A stretch of 64,000 nt of DNA, from the NCBI GenBank assembly GCA_026706025.1, contig JAPOZO010000007.1, positions 1 to 64,000 on the forward strand, given 5' to 3'. The position numbers were made by a program, and so were the translations under genes. The notes under the pieces were generated by a model. It saw nothing but the letters and a program-made list of their open reading frames with translations, was not told where the DNA came from and made no database searches. The first letter of the stretch is position 1; each line of letters begins with the position of its first letter. Of this stretch, positions 1,563-5,990 are shown one piece after another. The DNA is from Candidatus Poribacteria bacterium (GTDB taxonomy: Bacteria; Poribacteria; WGA-4E; WGA-3G).

Positions 1563-2894
1563 TTACAGACTTGTCCATTCTTGGATGTGTTCAGCAACTT
1601 CACCGCGTGGGACGATGTGCTGCGTTCTATTCGAGAGATCTCGGATTGCGACTGTGCCTGCCTCTACTTCATCCGAACCGAGGATAACAGCATACGGAAT
1701 GCCTTTGGTATCCGCATATTTTATCTGTGCGCTCATGCGCGCCGGGCGGGAGTAAACCTCTGCACGAATACCATTTTGACGCAGAAGCGTCGCGACTTTC
1801 AAGGATTCCTGCGCCAGATCGGCATCGAAAACAGTCACTAACACCTGCGTTACCGTTTTTCCGACTGCGGATGGGAACATATCAAATTCTTCCATCACGT
1901 CAATGATCCGCTCAATCCCGAAACTGGTACCGGTCGCGGGGTAACCCTGTTTGCTGAAACTGCCGATGAGTTCATCGTATCGACCGCCACCGGTGATACT
2001 CCCGATTTTCGGTTCTTCGACGACGGTCTCATAGATCGGACCGGTATAGTATTCCAAGCCGCGCACCATCGCAACGTTCACTTTATAAAATTCTTCGGGA
2101 ACACCGAGCGTTGTGAGATAACCGATCAGTTCCTCCAATTCCGAGATGCCCTCTCGCGCGGCTTCAGAATCACCGAGTTGCGCATTGAGCGCATTCAGTA
2201 CTGTCGCTGTATCGCCTTCAACCTCAAGCAAGGCAAGGAGTTTCTCAATAACAGGCTCCGGTATCTGGTTTTCCGCTAATTCGGTGCTAACCCCGGCTAA
2301 CCCAATCTTATCCAGTTTATCAATAGAGCGATAGAGACCCCCAAGTTGTTCAGTTGGCACGCCAGCGAATTGTCCGATGCCAGTGATGAGTTTCCGGTCA
2401 TTGATATTAATCTCAAATTGCTTAAAACCGAGACGTGTTAGCACCCGATAGACGAGCGTGACGTTTTCGGCATCAGCGAGCATACTCTCGCTGCCGACCG
2501 TATCTGCATCACACTGGAAGAATTGGCGGTAACGTCCCTTTTGTGGACGCTCGGCGCGCCAGACCGGATCAATCTGGTATCGCTTAAACGGTTTCGGGAG
2601 TTGTGGATACATAGCGATAAGTCGGCAAAGCGGCACCGAAAGATCATAGCGGAGGGAAATGTCCTCCTTGCCACCGACGTGTCCTGCCTGATAGATAAGC
2701 TTCTCCGCATCCGGTCCGTATTTGCCTGTGAGTACTTCCGATAATTCGAGGGCAGGGGTCTGCAAAGGTTCAAAACCAAATTCCTCAAACACGTCACGAA
2801 TGACACCTATAACGTACTGCCTACGGATCATCTGTTCAGGTAAGATGTCTCGCATCCCGCGCGGGACGCGCGGTTTAATGAATGGGGTTGCCAT
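1563..2894 (-). CDS. hisS: Histidyl-tRNA synthetase (HisRS)
   Basis: A 443-residue class II synthetase that charges tRNA-His. The N-terminal PRGMRDILP (residues 10-19) is typical of HisRS. Motif 2 is intact (RAERPQKGRYRQF, residues 113-125), as are the histidine-binding RGLEYYTG and motif 3 GTSFGIERI. A C-terminal anticodon-binding domain covers about the last 90 residues (VTQVLVTVFDADLAQESLKV onward). The adjacent hisZ is a paralogue, but this gene has the full set of synthetase motifs and is the better HisRS candidate. It lies downstream of hisZ-hisG, 128 bp after hisG, with a palindromic repeat in the gap. It is probably under the same histidine attenuator at 5695-5990. Confidence 0.95.
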   Translation of the reverse strand: MATPFIKPRVPRGMRDILPEQMIRRQYVIGVIRDVFEEFGFEPLQTPALELSEVLTGKYGPDAEKLIYQAGHVGGKEDISLRYDLSVPLCRLIAMYPQLPKPFKRYQIDPVWRAERPQKGRYRQFFQCDADTVGSESMLADAENVTLVYRVLTRLGFKQFEININDRKLITGIGQFAGVPTEQLGGLYRSIDKLDKIGLAGVSTELAENQIPEPVIEKLLALLEVEGDTATVLNALNAQLGDSEAAREGISELEELIGYLTTLGVPEEFYKVNVAMVRGLEYYTGPIYETVVEEPKIGSITGGGRYDELIGSFSKQGYPATGTSFGIERIIDVMEEFDMFPSAVGKTVTQVLVTVFDADLAQESLKVATLLRQNGIRAEVYSRPARMSAQIKYADTKGIPYAVILGSDEVEAGTVAIRDLSNRTQHIVPRGEVAEHIQEWTSL

Positions 2895-3022: not shown

Positions 3023-3802
3023 TTAAATGTGTCCGGGAAGTGCTTGGCTCCGTCGTCTCCGCAAACCTTTCTGGAGTGCCTGCTTGAATGCTTCAATCTT
3101 TTCCCGCTTCCATGCGTCCCTGAGTGCCTTCGGATTGGCAATAAGGGTAGATTCGGATTCGCGTAAGCGTTCAATCTCTTTGAGTGCATTCGCTTTGATT
3201 GTACGCCGTGATGCTGTCGAATTGTCGATGATAGCATCGGCTTCTTCAGGCGGTTTTCCCTCAGTTGCCCCAAAAGACAGCATGAGCGTGATGGGAGACT
3301 GGTAAGAGCCAGGCGTATTAAGCCGCTTCCACGGTGTTAAAATCGTCGGCGCAACCTTATTTTCTGTCTTTTCAAGGATATATTTCTCGGCGATATTCAA
3401 ATATTCCGTAGAAATGAGGATGTCTCCAACCGCGAGGTTTATCAAATCCTCAAATGTGTTGATATCTTCTCGTTCTTCACGAACAGCCAGAATAATATCG
3501 ATGTGTCCATATGCCAGAGGCAAAATCTCTTCAACGTCTGAATCCGTCTCTTCAACCCAATCTTGACCCGTAATCCCTAAATCATAGAAGTCATCCATGC
3601 CGACATAGACCGGGATCTCTTGTGGACGCGAAATCTTGATCTGAAATTCGTTATCATCGCGGAAGGTCGCGCGATAAGATCTGTCAGTTTCGGTGTAACC
3701 GTTGAGTTCGTAACCGGCACGCTGAAACAGTTCAAGGGTCTCTGATTGTAGGCTCCCTTTCGGTAAAAGTAGATTCAGCGTCCGTTGTGATTCCGTTTGC
3801 AT
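3023..3802 (-). CDS. hisG: ATP phosphoribosyltransferase catalytic subunit, short form
   Basis: Catalyses the first committed step of histidine synthesis, joining ATP and PRPP to phosphoribosyl-ATP. I start it at ATG 3802 (MQTESQ), which gives 259 residues and puts the family's opening LLLPKGSLQ near residue 11. The frame is open up to a GTG at 3871 directly after the hisZ stop, but the extra 23 residues look non-homologous, and a GGAG lies upstream of 3802. The PRPP-binding region is probably near DAIIDNSTASRRT. The protein ends soon after the ANPKAL helix and lacks the roughly 80-residue ACT-like regulatory domain of long-form HisG, so it should need HisZ, encoded immediately upstream. Confidence 0.9.
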   Translation of the reverse strand: MQTESQRTLNLLLPKGSLQSETLELFQRAGYELNGYTETDRSYRATFRDDNEFQIKISRPQEIPVYVGMDDFYDLGITGQDWVEETDSDVEEILPLAYGHIDIILAVREEREDINTFEDLINLAVGDILISTEYLNIAEKYILEKTENKVAPTILTPWKRLNTPGSYQSPITLMLSFGATEGKPPEEADAIIDNSTASRRTIKANALKEIERLRESESTLIANPKALRDAWKREKIEAFKQALQKGLRRRRSQALPGHI

Positions 3803-3871
3803 TTTTTTATTTGTGCTCCTTTTTCTCAAAGGTAATTGCATTCTTTTCCAGTTTTTGACGGGCAACAACAC

Positions 3872-5308
3872 CTAAAGGAGATCGGTAACAGTAGTTTTTT
3901 CTGTGTCGCCAGTTCTGAGGTGAATCAAGTACATTGAATCATCTGCAGTGAAGCGGAGCAGATAATCGTAATTCAATCGGTTGGCGTAATCCCGCTGGGC
4001 TTGGAAATCACGTTCCATTAAATCCACTTCCACGTTCTTACCTTCTCTTCGCAGGGTTTCAGCGAGGCGTTGCGCTTCCGAAGTCTGTTCCAAAGTTTCC
4101 GTTGCAATAAAATAGTCTCTTCTTCCGTTACCTGTTGCCTTTCCTGTGTCGGCAAACGCCTCTACAAGCGCGTCAAATTGGAACGCAAACCCAGCACCCG
4201 GTGTCGGTGGACCGCCAAAAGACGCGATGAGACCATCGTATCTCCCGCCACCACAGAGTGATAAACCTTTTTCAGACAATTCAATCTGGAAAACTGTGCC
4301 GGTATAGAAATCAAACCCGCGCGTGATACCCAAATTGATTTCAAAGTCTGTAATATCGTAGTTTTCTAAACAGTCGCAAAGTGCTATGAGTTCTTGACGT
4401 GCTGTTTTGGCAGTGTCGCCGAGAAGCGTCTCCCACGCTGCCATGACAGTTTTCTTATCACCACAAATCTTTGAAACATCTATACAACGCTGGGCAGTCT
4501 CTTCAGAAACATTGAAATAGCGGAGCCACCGTGCTTTATAGGTTTCCTCGGCAATTGCTGGTAGTTTTTCTGCATAAGTCGGCGCAGTATTTTCGGTCAG
4601 TTCTTGAACTTCGGAAACCTCTATTTTATAAGCACCTTGGTAGTCAGATCCTTGCGACCGACGCAGCATATTCAGCGCGTCTTGAAGCGTTTCCAGGTCC
4701 CATAGATAGCTCTCGTTACGGAGACGAACGAGGTGGTCAATGTCCCATATAATTTCACCGTGATCCTTAGTATCCAGCGCGACCTGTTTGAAAATCTCGC
4801 GGAAAACCCTTGTATTGCCGATTCTTAATTTTCTCTGTGAAATGTTGAGCTTCTCAAGGATTCGGATCGGAATCGCAATGATTTCAGCGTCTGCATGGGC
4901 GGAAGCCGGCCCAACGAGTTCAACCCCTGCCTGTCGGAATTCCCGCTTGACTTTGATGCCATCAGTGATCGGTTCCTGTCGGACACACTGCCCGATGTAG
5001 TAGAGTTTATACGGATAAGGAAGGTCTTTTAGGTCCCCATTGGCAATGAGTCGGCAGACAGGTGCCGTCAACTCAGGTCTTAAGGCATAATCTACCCGAT
5101 CCGAACCGACGAACGTAAACATTTTGTGACGGATCTCTTCGCCAACTTGTGCTGACAGAAGTGCGAAGGATTCAAACAGTGGAGTCTGAACCTGGGCGTA
5201 TCCGTAGGTTTCAAAGGTTTCGCGAACGATATTTTCAACGAAATTTCGCTGAGCCATCTGCTCGGGTAGAAAGTCATTCGTCCCGGCAGGTTTATCAAAT
5301 TTCTCCAT
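3872..5308 (-). CDS. hisZ: ATP phosphoribosyltransferase regulatory subunit (HisRS paralogue)
   Basis: HisZ is a catalytically inactive HisRS-like protein that forms the HisG/HisZ complex and gives histidine feedback. The 478-residue product opens KPAGTNDFLPEQ, like class II synthetase cores, and has HisZ-type motif 2 surroundings (RQEPITDGIKVKREFRQAGV) in place of the RAERPQKGRYRQF seen in hisS. It keeps an RGFDFYTGTVF motif. It is longer than usual HisZ (about 390 residues): an insert near residues 190-280 and about 90 C-terminal residues resemble a degenerate anticodon-binding domain. Next to short-form hisG, the HisZ role is the best reading; a divergent second HisRS is the alternative. 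The TAG stop abuts the hisG frame. Confidence 0.85.
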   Translation of the reverse strand: MEKFDKPAGTNDFLPEQMAQRNFVENIVRETFETYGYAQVQTPLFESFALLSAQVGEEIRHKMFTFVGSDRVDYALRPELTAPVCRLIANGDLKDLPYPYKLYYIGQCVRQEPITDGIKVKREFRQAGVELVGPASAHADAEIIAIPIRILEKLNISQRKLRIGNTRVFREIFKQVALDTKDHGEIIWDIDHLVRLRNESYLWDLETLQDALNMLRRSQGSDYQGAYKIEVSEVQELTENTAPTYAEKLPAIAEETYKARWLRYFNVSEETAQRCIDVSKICGDKKTVMAAWETLLGDTAKTARQELIALCDCLENYDITDFEINLGITRGFDFYTGTVFQIELSEKGLSLCGGGRYDGLIASFGGPPTPGAGFAFQFDALVEAFADTGKATGNGRRDYFIATETLEQTSEAQRLAETLRREGKNVEVDLMERDFQAQRDYANRLNYDYLLRFTADDSMYLIHLRTGDTEKTTVTDLL

Positions 5309-5332: not shown

Positions 5333-5447
5333 TCCTCCATCTATTGTTTATGAAAAACTCCAGTTTCAGTTTAGGGTAAAAGACTTAAAAATTCTCAATC
5401 CTGCCATGGTATAGTAGTCTGTCCAGTCTAAAATTGGGAGTAGCCCC

Positions 5448-5547
5448 GTTCGTAGTAGGGCAATTCTGCGGCGTACTCGCCCAAATGCGAAGTGCATTAT
5501 TGCCCGTTTCTGAGCGGAGACGTGCGATAAATCGCACTACTACGAAC
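5448..5547. repeat. GTTCGTAGTAG terminal-inverted-repeat element, copy 1
   Basis: A 100-bp element bounded by perfect 11-bp inverted ends, GTTCGTAGTAG and CTACTACGAAC. Its interior (GGGCAATTCTGCGG...GCATTATTGCCCGT...GCGATAAATCGC) recurs at 8924-9058 and, inverted, at 16165-16236. There is no coding capacity. It lies in the leader between the attenuator and hisZ, so it would be transcribed with the operon. Confidence 0.75.
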
Positions 5548-5591
5548 GAGTCCACCCACAATTCAAAGGTAGACATACTACTAGGCAGAAA

Positions 5592-5661
5592 CCCGTTTTT
5601 TTGACCAACAACTCGACTCGAAATATAATATAGAAAGGCACGAGTTGTTGGTCAAAACGGG
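5592..5661. repeat. Long inverted repeat in the his leader
   Basis: The arms CCCGTTTT-TTT-GACCAACAACTCG (5592-5615) and CGAGTTGTTGGTCAAAACGGG (5641-5661) are complementary apart from three extra T. They enclose an A/T-rich 25-nt loop. The unit lies just past the attenuator terminator on the minus strand. It could be a small mobile-element relic, or a hairpin protecting or pausing the read-through transcript. Confidence 0.6.
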
Positions 5662-5694: not shown

Positions 5695-5775
5695 AAAAAA
5701 CCCAGTAAACAGTCGGCTCTTTTTCTCGCGCGTACCACTAACGCGGCACGGAGGAGAGCGGCTCGTTTACCAGGG
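5695..5775 (-). terminator. Attenuator terminator of the his operon leader
   Basis: Read on the minus strand, CCC (5775-5773) and GTAAAC (5770-5765) pair with GTTTAC (5710-5705) and GGG (5703-5701). Inside, GCTCT (5759-5755) pairs with AGAGC (5720-5716), and an apical CGCGT/ACGCG hairpin is also present. Six T follow directly at 5700-5695, then A and six more T. This is an intrinsic terminator about 390 bp before hisZ and downstream of the histidine-rich leader peptide. Confidence 0.75.
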
Positions 5776-5836
5776 TCCAAACAAGTTAAACTTGCTTCGT
5801 GTCAAAGATATTTATTCACATTCCCTCATCCGCTCT
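5755..5836 (-). promoter_or_regulatory. Predicted antiterminator pairing in the his leader
   Basis: AGAGCGG at 5836-5830, starting 2 nt after the leader-peptide stop, is exactly complementary to CCGCTCT at 5761-5755. That second segment contains the GCTCT arm needed by the terminator, so the two structures exclude each other. A ribosome stalled on the His codons would leave AGAGCGG free (read-through). One reaching the stop codon would cover it (termination). The pairing is seen directly; the mechanism is inferred by analogy with enterobacterial his attenuation. Confidence 0.65.
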
Positions 5837-5838
5837 AC

Positions 5839-5892
5839 TCAAAAGTGGACCGAATGATGGTGATGGATGTTGAATATAGTGGTGTTAAGCAT
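5839..5892 (-). CDS. Histidine-rich leader peptide (HisL-like)
   Basis: A 17-codon ORF, MLNTTIFNIHHHHSVHF, with five His codons (CAT CAC CAT CAT, then CAC) just before the TGA stop. It lies about 63 nt downstream of the predicted start of a consensus promoter and upstream of mutually exclusive RNA stems and a terminator. This is the arrangement of ribosome-mediated attenuation of histidine operons. No strong ribosome site is visible before the ATG; a GCAAGTT/AACTTGC hairpin (5908-5923) precedes it. It is too short for standard gene callers. The peptide itself is not expected to have a function; its translation is the sensor of charged tRNA-His. Confidence 0.75.
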   Translation of the reverse strand: MLNTTIFNIHHHHSVHF

Positions 5893-5961
5893 TTTTCAAT
5901 GTTATTCGCAAGTTGAAACTTGCTATCAAGAAAGTCAGTGATTTTAATTAAGTTTAATGAT

Positions 5962-5990
5962 ATTATACCCCGTTGAGAGGCGAATGTCAA
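5962..5990 (-). promoter_or_regulatory. Consensus sigma-70 promoter of the his operon
   Basis: On the minus strand, TTGACA (5990-5985) and TATAAT (5967-5962) are both perfect hexamers with a 17-bp spacer. The predicted start is near 5955, giving a leader of about 650 nt to hisZ that contains the leader peptide and attenuator. A perfect promoter followed by a conditional terminator is typical of attenuated biosynthetic operons. Confidence 0.8.

Follow-up and report, generated by a model that had tools for sequence, protein, structure and literature searches.

Organization of the Locus

The DNA studied here is a 64,000-nt stretch of the Candidatus Poribacteria contig JAPOZO010000007.1, below called the window. 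On its minus strand a leader region (5990-5695) is found ahead of three genes, hisZ, hisG, and hisS, and the positions of all features are collected in Table 1. The hisZ product matches both TIGR00443 and TIGR00442, in both cases under the cut-off. HisZ is nevertheless the better name, since the closest solved relative is an ATP-PRT regulatory subunit and since the gene abuts a hisG whose product is without the C-terminal regulatory domain; a domain search did not find the HisG C-terminal domain in this product. An earlier interpretation made from the DNA alone (the sequence-only reading) had named the genes behind the leader as hisZ-hisG-hisS, and these identities are backed by the TIGR and Pfam matches and by 3od1.

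Table 1. Features of the his leader and the genes downstream of it; positions are those of the window.
Feature	Position	Strand	Remarks
Promoter TTGACA-17-TATAAT	5962-5990	-	TTGACA 5990-5985, 17-nt spacer, TATAAT 5967-5962; 12/12 consensus matches
Leader peptide ORF, MLNTTIFNIHHHHSVHF, 17 codons	5839-5892	-	ATG at 5892, TGA 5841-5839; conserved in 45/45 relatives
Regulatory His codons, CATCACCATCAT and CAC	5845-5865	-	Four consecutive (5865-5854) plus one (5847-5845); double as 5' strand of the 1:2 hairpin
1:2 hairpin core, UCAUUCG/CGGAUGA	5826-5857	-	Sequesters segment 2; predicted in 45/45 loci; stop codon in the apical part
Segment 2, AGAGCGG, antiterminator 5' strand	5830-5836	-	GRGCGG in 45/45 loci
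Small hairpin between segments 2 and 3, AGCAAGTTTAACTTG	5782-5796	-	Conserved; alignment and consensus fold
Segment 3, CCGCTCT, within terminator 5' arm	5755-5761	-	CCGCTC kept in 44/45 loci; ribosome-constrained folding
Intrinsic terminator (3:4)	5695-5775	-	Stem 5775-5701, T6 tail 5700-5695
hisZ, ATP phosphoribosyltransferase regulatory subunit, HisRS paralogue	3872-5308	-	Best solved relative 3od1 (ATP-PRT regulatory subunit)
hisG, short form	3023-3871	-	TIGR00070 above cut-off; PF01634 only; true start may lie further in
hisS, histidyl-tRNA synthetase	1563-2894	-	TIGR00442 above cut-off

The same reading had described a perfect promoter, an ORF of 17 codons with five His codons, four of them consecutive, the segment AGAGCGG right after its stop, and the complement CCGCTCT inside the 5' arm of a terminator ending in T6. 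All of these were found on the minus strand, and the differences from the coordinates first given are small and immaterial. The promoter, the ORF, the complement, and the T6 tail are as described, while AGAGCGG is found two bases past the TGA and does not immediately adjoin it.

There is also a hairpin, GCAAGTT..AACTTGC (5923-5907), 5' of the ORF. Its arms are shared with the small conserved hairpin at 5796-5782, which would allow the two hairpins to pair with one another. Several relatives (loci L008-L011 and L015) are without the upstream hairpin, and it has been omitted from the mechanism below because it is not conserved across all relatives.

Conservation of the Leader

The features of the leader were confirmed to exceed chance. 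In simulated 64-kb windows, a short ATG-initiated ORF that contains HHHH and has a stop close by arises at a rate of 0.01 per window, and across the 6.27-Mb genome only two sites match the five-His pattern. The leader RNA has a better fold than its dinucleotide shuffles (200 of them; z = -4.1). The genomes of the relatives that have the same hisZ gene are all labelled Poribacteria, and the layout is common to all 45 hisZ loci with sufficient upstream DNA. TTGACA-17-TATAAT is found in nearly all relatives, with a spacer that varies in sequence.

Every one of the 45 loci has three to four consecutive His codons, and the encoded peptide contains HHHH-SVH or HHH-S(I/V)H, the final position being Tyr or Asp in a few. 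The near-clade peptide terminates in HHHHSVHF, with four invariant His, while that of the far clade has HHHS(I/V)HS or similar, with one further His (or Tyr) besides the run of three. The leader stop is at its usual position in 44 loci. In the remaining one, L016, TGG replaces TGA, and translation would run nine codons on, through AGAGCGG. The antiterminator core GRGCGG:CCGCTC is intact in 44/45 loci. Conservation of the His codons and of the pairing among relatives was a check proposed in the sequence-only reading, and the 45 hisZ loci passed it, as the leader did the proposed folding with a ribosome in place (see below).

Predicted Mutually Exclusive RNA Structures

Three pairings that exclude each other are predicted for the leader RNA: 1:2, 2:3 (the antiterminator), and 3:4, the last being the intrinsic terminator. 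For the near clade, the 1:2 hairpin is predicted to form between UCAUUCG and CGGAUGA. The far clade has a shifted register, with predicted pairing of AUUC and AUCC to GAAU and GGAU. The helix of segment 2 with segment 3 is 97.4% paired. Across the alignment the antiterminator is paired in 93.6% of cells, as against 25-58% when one strand is slid one to three columns, and the terminator is paired in 93.5% of cells, as against 22-42% in the slid control. Seven terminator pairs are altered on both sides, in a total of 20 cells, and none of 500 shuffles scored as high, although such shuffle counts are not probabilities when the sequences are related; the slid control preserves this relatedness. 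The core of the antiterminator is nearly invariant, and covariation therefore says little about it; here the support is conservation. Compensatory changes, which the sequence-only reading had proposed to look for in AGAGCGG/CCGCTCT, were found in the terminator, while the core pairing is supported by conservation and the 1:2 hairpin has been kept through a shifted register.

Folding with the ribosome-covered bases masked was performed for the 45 loci on RNA cut before the 3' arm of the terminator. The median probability of the 2:3 pairing was 0.99 when the ribosome occupied the first or the second His codon, as against 0.00 both for RNA without a ribosome and for a ribosome at the stop. It was above 0.5 in 3/45 loci when no ribosome was present, in 40/45 when the stall was at the first His codon, and in 0/45 when the ribosome was at the stop. 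The spacing is thus predicted to be such that a ribosome on the regulatory codons frees segment 2 while a ribosome at the stop covers it, which is the switch expected from the earlier proposal that stalling would free AGAGCGG. The exceptions are L066, whose antiterminator core contains a mismatch, and three loci with a weak predicted antiterminator (L071, L020, and L027). For full-length RNA, equilibrium folding often favours the terminator even when a ribosome is stalled (median probability of 3:4, 0.96). The switch must therefore be kinetic and decided before the 3' arm emerges, as in known attenuators.

Constraint on the Leader Reading Frame

The changes seen among the 45 loci largely respect the reading frame. 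Three loci have an in-frame deletion of 3 nt, and two have a 1-nt deletion that in each case gives a TAG one codon later. The stops swap between TGA and TAA among the relatives, and the ATG is invariant (30/30 counted in the near clade). For the codons F-N-I just before the His run pS is 1.01 and pN 0.11 in the near clade, values that come from few codons and related sequences; no comparable contrast is seen when this region is read out of frame. The F-N-I codons (within 5892-5866) show in the near clade strong purifying selection at the amino-acid level (pN/pS 0.11), while F-F is common in the far clade. The His codons themselves are nearly constant in the near clade, third positions included. 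Such scarcity of synonymous change fits codons that also serve as the 5' strand of the 1:2 hairpin.

The near fixation of these third positions is a constraint at the level of RNA, and would also be expected if the terminator were constitutive and the conserved RNA element served an RNA-binding protein, the His codons then resulting from RNA pairing and not from translation. This explanation is very unlikely, as the codons immediately 5' of the His run vary almost only synonymously, the indels either leave the frame intact or are followed directly by a new stop, the ATG does not vary, and the far clade retains HHH..H despite its shifted hairpin register. Judged from these substitution and indel patterns, the leader reading frame is under constraint.

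None of the 45 leader ORFs is preceded by a Shine-Dalgarno-like motif. Among 40 long ORFs of the window, 23 have one and 17 have none. Initiation at the leader ORFs must therefore be independent of that motif.

Proposed Mechanism

The leader combines a short ORF that is constrained in frame and has clustered codons for the amino acid of the operon (45/45 loci), alternative pairings of which one is an intrinsic terminator, and downstream genes (hisZ, hisG, and hisS) belonging to the histidine pathway. Very probably, as judged from sequence comparison and modelled folds, this is classical ribosome-mediated attenuation of transcription, with charged tRNA-His as the signal sensed and hisZ-hisG, probably together with hisS, as the genes under control. 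The sequence-only reading, which proposed a peptide-based his attenuator, is supported as essentially right by the conserved codons and pairing together with the ribosome-constrained folding.

RNA polymerase would start just downstream of 5962, with a ribosome trailing it through the leader ORF. When His-tRNA is ample, the ribosome would reach the stop and cover AGAGCGG, so that the terminator with its U6 tract forms and the transcript ends near 5695. When His-tRNA is scarce, the ribosome would stall on CATCACCATCAT and cover segment 1, thereby freeing AGAGCGG, which could then pair with CCGCTCT before the 3' arm of the terminator has been made, and transcription would continue. With no translating ribosome the 1:2 hairpin would hold AGAGCGG, making termination the default. 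Transcription of the leader, translation of its ORF, stalling, and read-through are what we infer from this arrangement, and read-through would depend on both the level of charged tRNA and the translation of the leader.

Uncharged tRNA-His could in principle also bind the leader RNA directly and stabilize an antiterminator, as in a T-box riboswitch, the His-rich ORF then being incidental. T-boxes do control his and hisS genes in Firmicutes, with a terminator of the same kind (PMC9413887). However, no match to the T-box in Rfam was obtained, even at E-values up to 10, both the reading frame and the stop of the leader are conserved, and the UGG (5772-5770) that might be part of a T-box UGGN is not conserved, L029 and L031 having CCCAGTAAAC. 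A T-box is thus extremely improbable here.

Probable Extent of the Regulated Transcript

The distance from the terminator to hisZ is 386 nt in this genome, while the relatives, with one exception, have 22-216 nt. Two inverted repeats are found in the gap, one with perfect arms of 17 nt (5599-5615/5641-5657) and one with imperfect arms of 54 nt (5412-5465/5530-5583). These repeats (5412-5657), which lengthen the gap, look like inserted intergenic elements. Within the inner inverted repeat each strand has promoter-like sites, with 10-11 of 12 matches. A promoter-like site at 5655-5627, weaker than that of the leader (10/12 matches), is located between the terminator and hisZ and could bypass the control exerted by the attenuator.

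The leader might work as proposed and hisS still be transcribed separately, in which case the loop would cover only HisZ-HisG. The 128-nt gap between hisG and hisS is compatible with this, as is a weak promoter-like site at 3026-2999, although with 9/12 matches it is no better than expected by chance. Against it, no terminator-like site was found on the minus strand of this gap in the window, and 32 of 33 same-genus genomes have the three genes in the order hisZ-hisG-hisS, the hisS match starting about 0.85-1.3 kb past hisZ. Separate transcription of hisS has some probability but is the less likely arrangement, and hisS is inferred to be on the same transcript as hisZ-hisG.

Distribution within Poribacteria

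A covariance model of the leader found the element in 56 of the 73 genomes of the order. All belong to one family (56/59) and represent four genera, while the element was found in none of the 14 genomes of three sister families. In the three members of the family that are without it (G022, G023, and G032), hisZ is missing or truncated by a contig edge. The G025 leader stands at the end of one contig and hisZ on another, as would be expected from an assembly break. A second copy in G024 (L084, contig 200) was rejected as probable binning contamination; it is near-identical to the leader of G029, lies near a contig end, and the genome has an estimated contamination of 6%.

Most of the sister-family genomes examined encode a full-scoring long HisG and no hisZ. 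No His-run ORF was found near the long hisG in 22 loci of these families, and no leader upstream of hisS in 12 loci, where two weak ORFs with scattered His were seen. In the genomes examined the attenuator thus goes with the HisG plus HisZ form of the enzyme. The short HisG with HisZ seen here, compared with the long HisG without HisZ in the sister families (L105-L125), amounts to a replacement of enzyme form within the phylum.

It may be speculated that the leader peptide has been selected for its own sequence (F-N-I, and no Shine-Dalgarno motif), with the nascent chain or slow initiation, and not the His codons alone, tuning the stall, and that the family acquired hisZ and a short hisG in place of the long HisG together with, or before, a newly arisen His attenuator. 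This combined scenario is rather improbable.

Comparison with Known Attenuators

The hisL peptide has seven His codons. The Poribacteria leader differs from hisL in having four plus one His codons and no Shine-Dalgarno motif, and would control hisZ-hisG-hisS instead of a full his operon. The enterobacterial his leader has a short ORF with a His run, 1:2, 2:3, and 3:4 hairpins, an intrinsic terminator, and histidine genes downstream (PMC9413887), and the leader described here has the same parts. The Rfam family His_leader, which is gammaproteobacterial, gave no match, either at the gathering threshold or at E-values up to 10, and no other Rfam family matched the leader. The Poribacteria leader would accordingly work like the enterobacterial one, but is not a sequence member of this family.

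The sequence-only reading called peptide-based his attenuation well described in Proteobacteria. It is not restricted to them, having been reported in Firmicutes as well (PMC2965389, PMC9413887). In Bacillus, His leader peptides are reported to precede hisZ and a hisS paralogue (Naville and Gautheret, 2010, PMC2965389), so that there is precedent for an attenuator in front of hisZ and a paralogue of His-tRNA synthetase. As compared by description, these leaders of another phylum have the same His-rich ORF and terminator upstream of the genes (PMC2965389). The his attenuators of Firmicutes occur in three lineages, the B. cereus group, Peptostreptococcaceae and others, and Erysipelotrichales; these too belong to another phylum and, again compared by description, have runs of three to five His codons, an antiterminator, and a terminator, as here (PMC9413887).

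The enzyme that charges the sensed tRNA is inside the loop in several attenuators of aminoacyl-tRNA synthetase genes, as it would be here. One of these is the leader-peptide attenuator of pheST in E. coli. Leader-peptide attenuators likewise control leuS and trpS in Streptomyces (PMC1262725). These systems sense other amino acids and have the synthetase gene first, whereas in Poribacteria the synthetase gene is the third.

No earlier report of leader-peptide attenuation in Poribacteria was found in the openly readable literature. As far as the literature searched shows, the mechanism is ordinary, being classical leader-peptide attenuation as in E. coli, while the lineage is new. The finding extends this form of regulation, with strong comparative support, to an uncultured, sponge-associated phylum, and such an attenuator would imply that transcription and translation are coupled in Poribacteria. 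As the sister families with a long HisG were without such a leader in the stretches checked, the family may furthermore offer a case that can be dated, in which an attenuator arose together with a change of pathway enzyme or after it.
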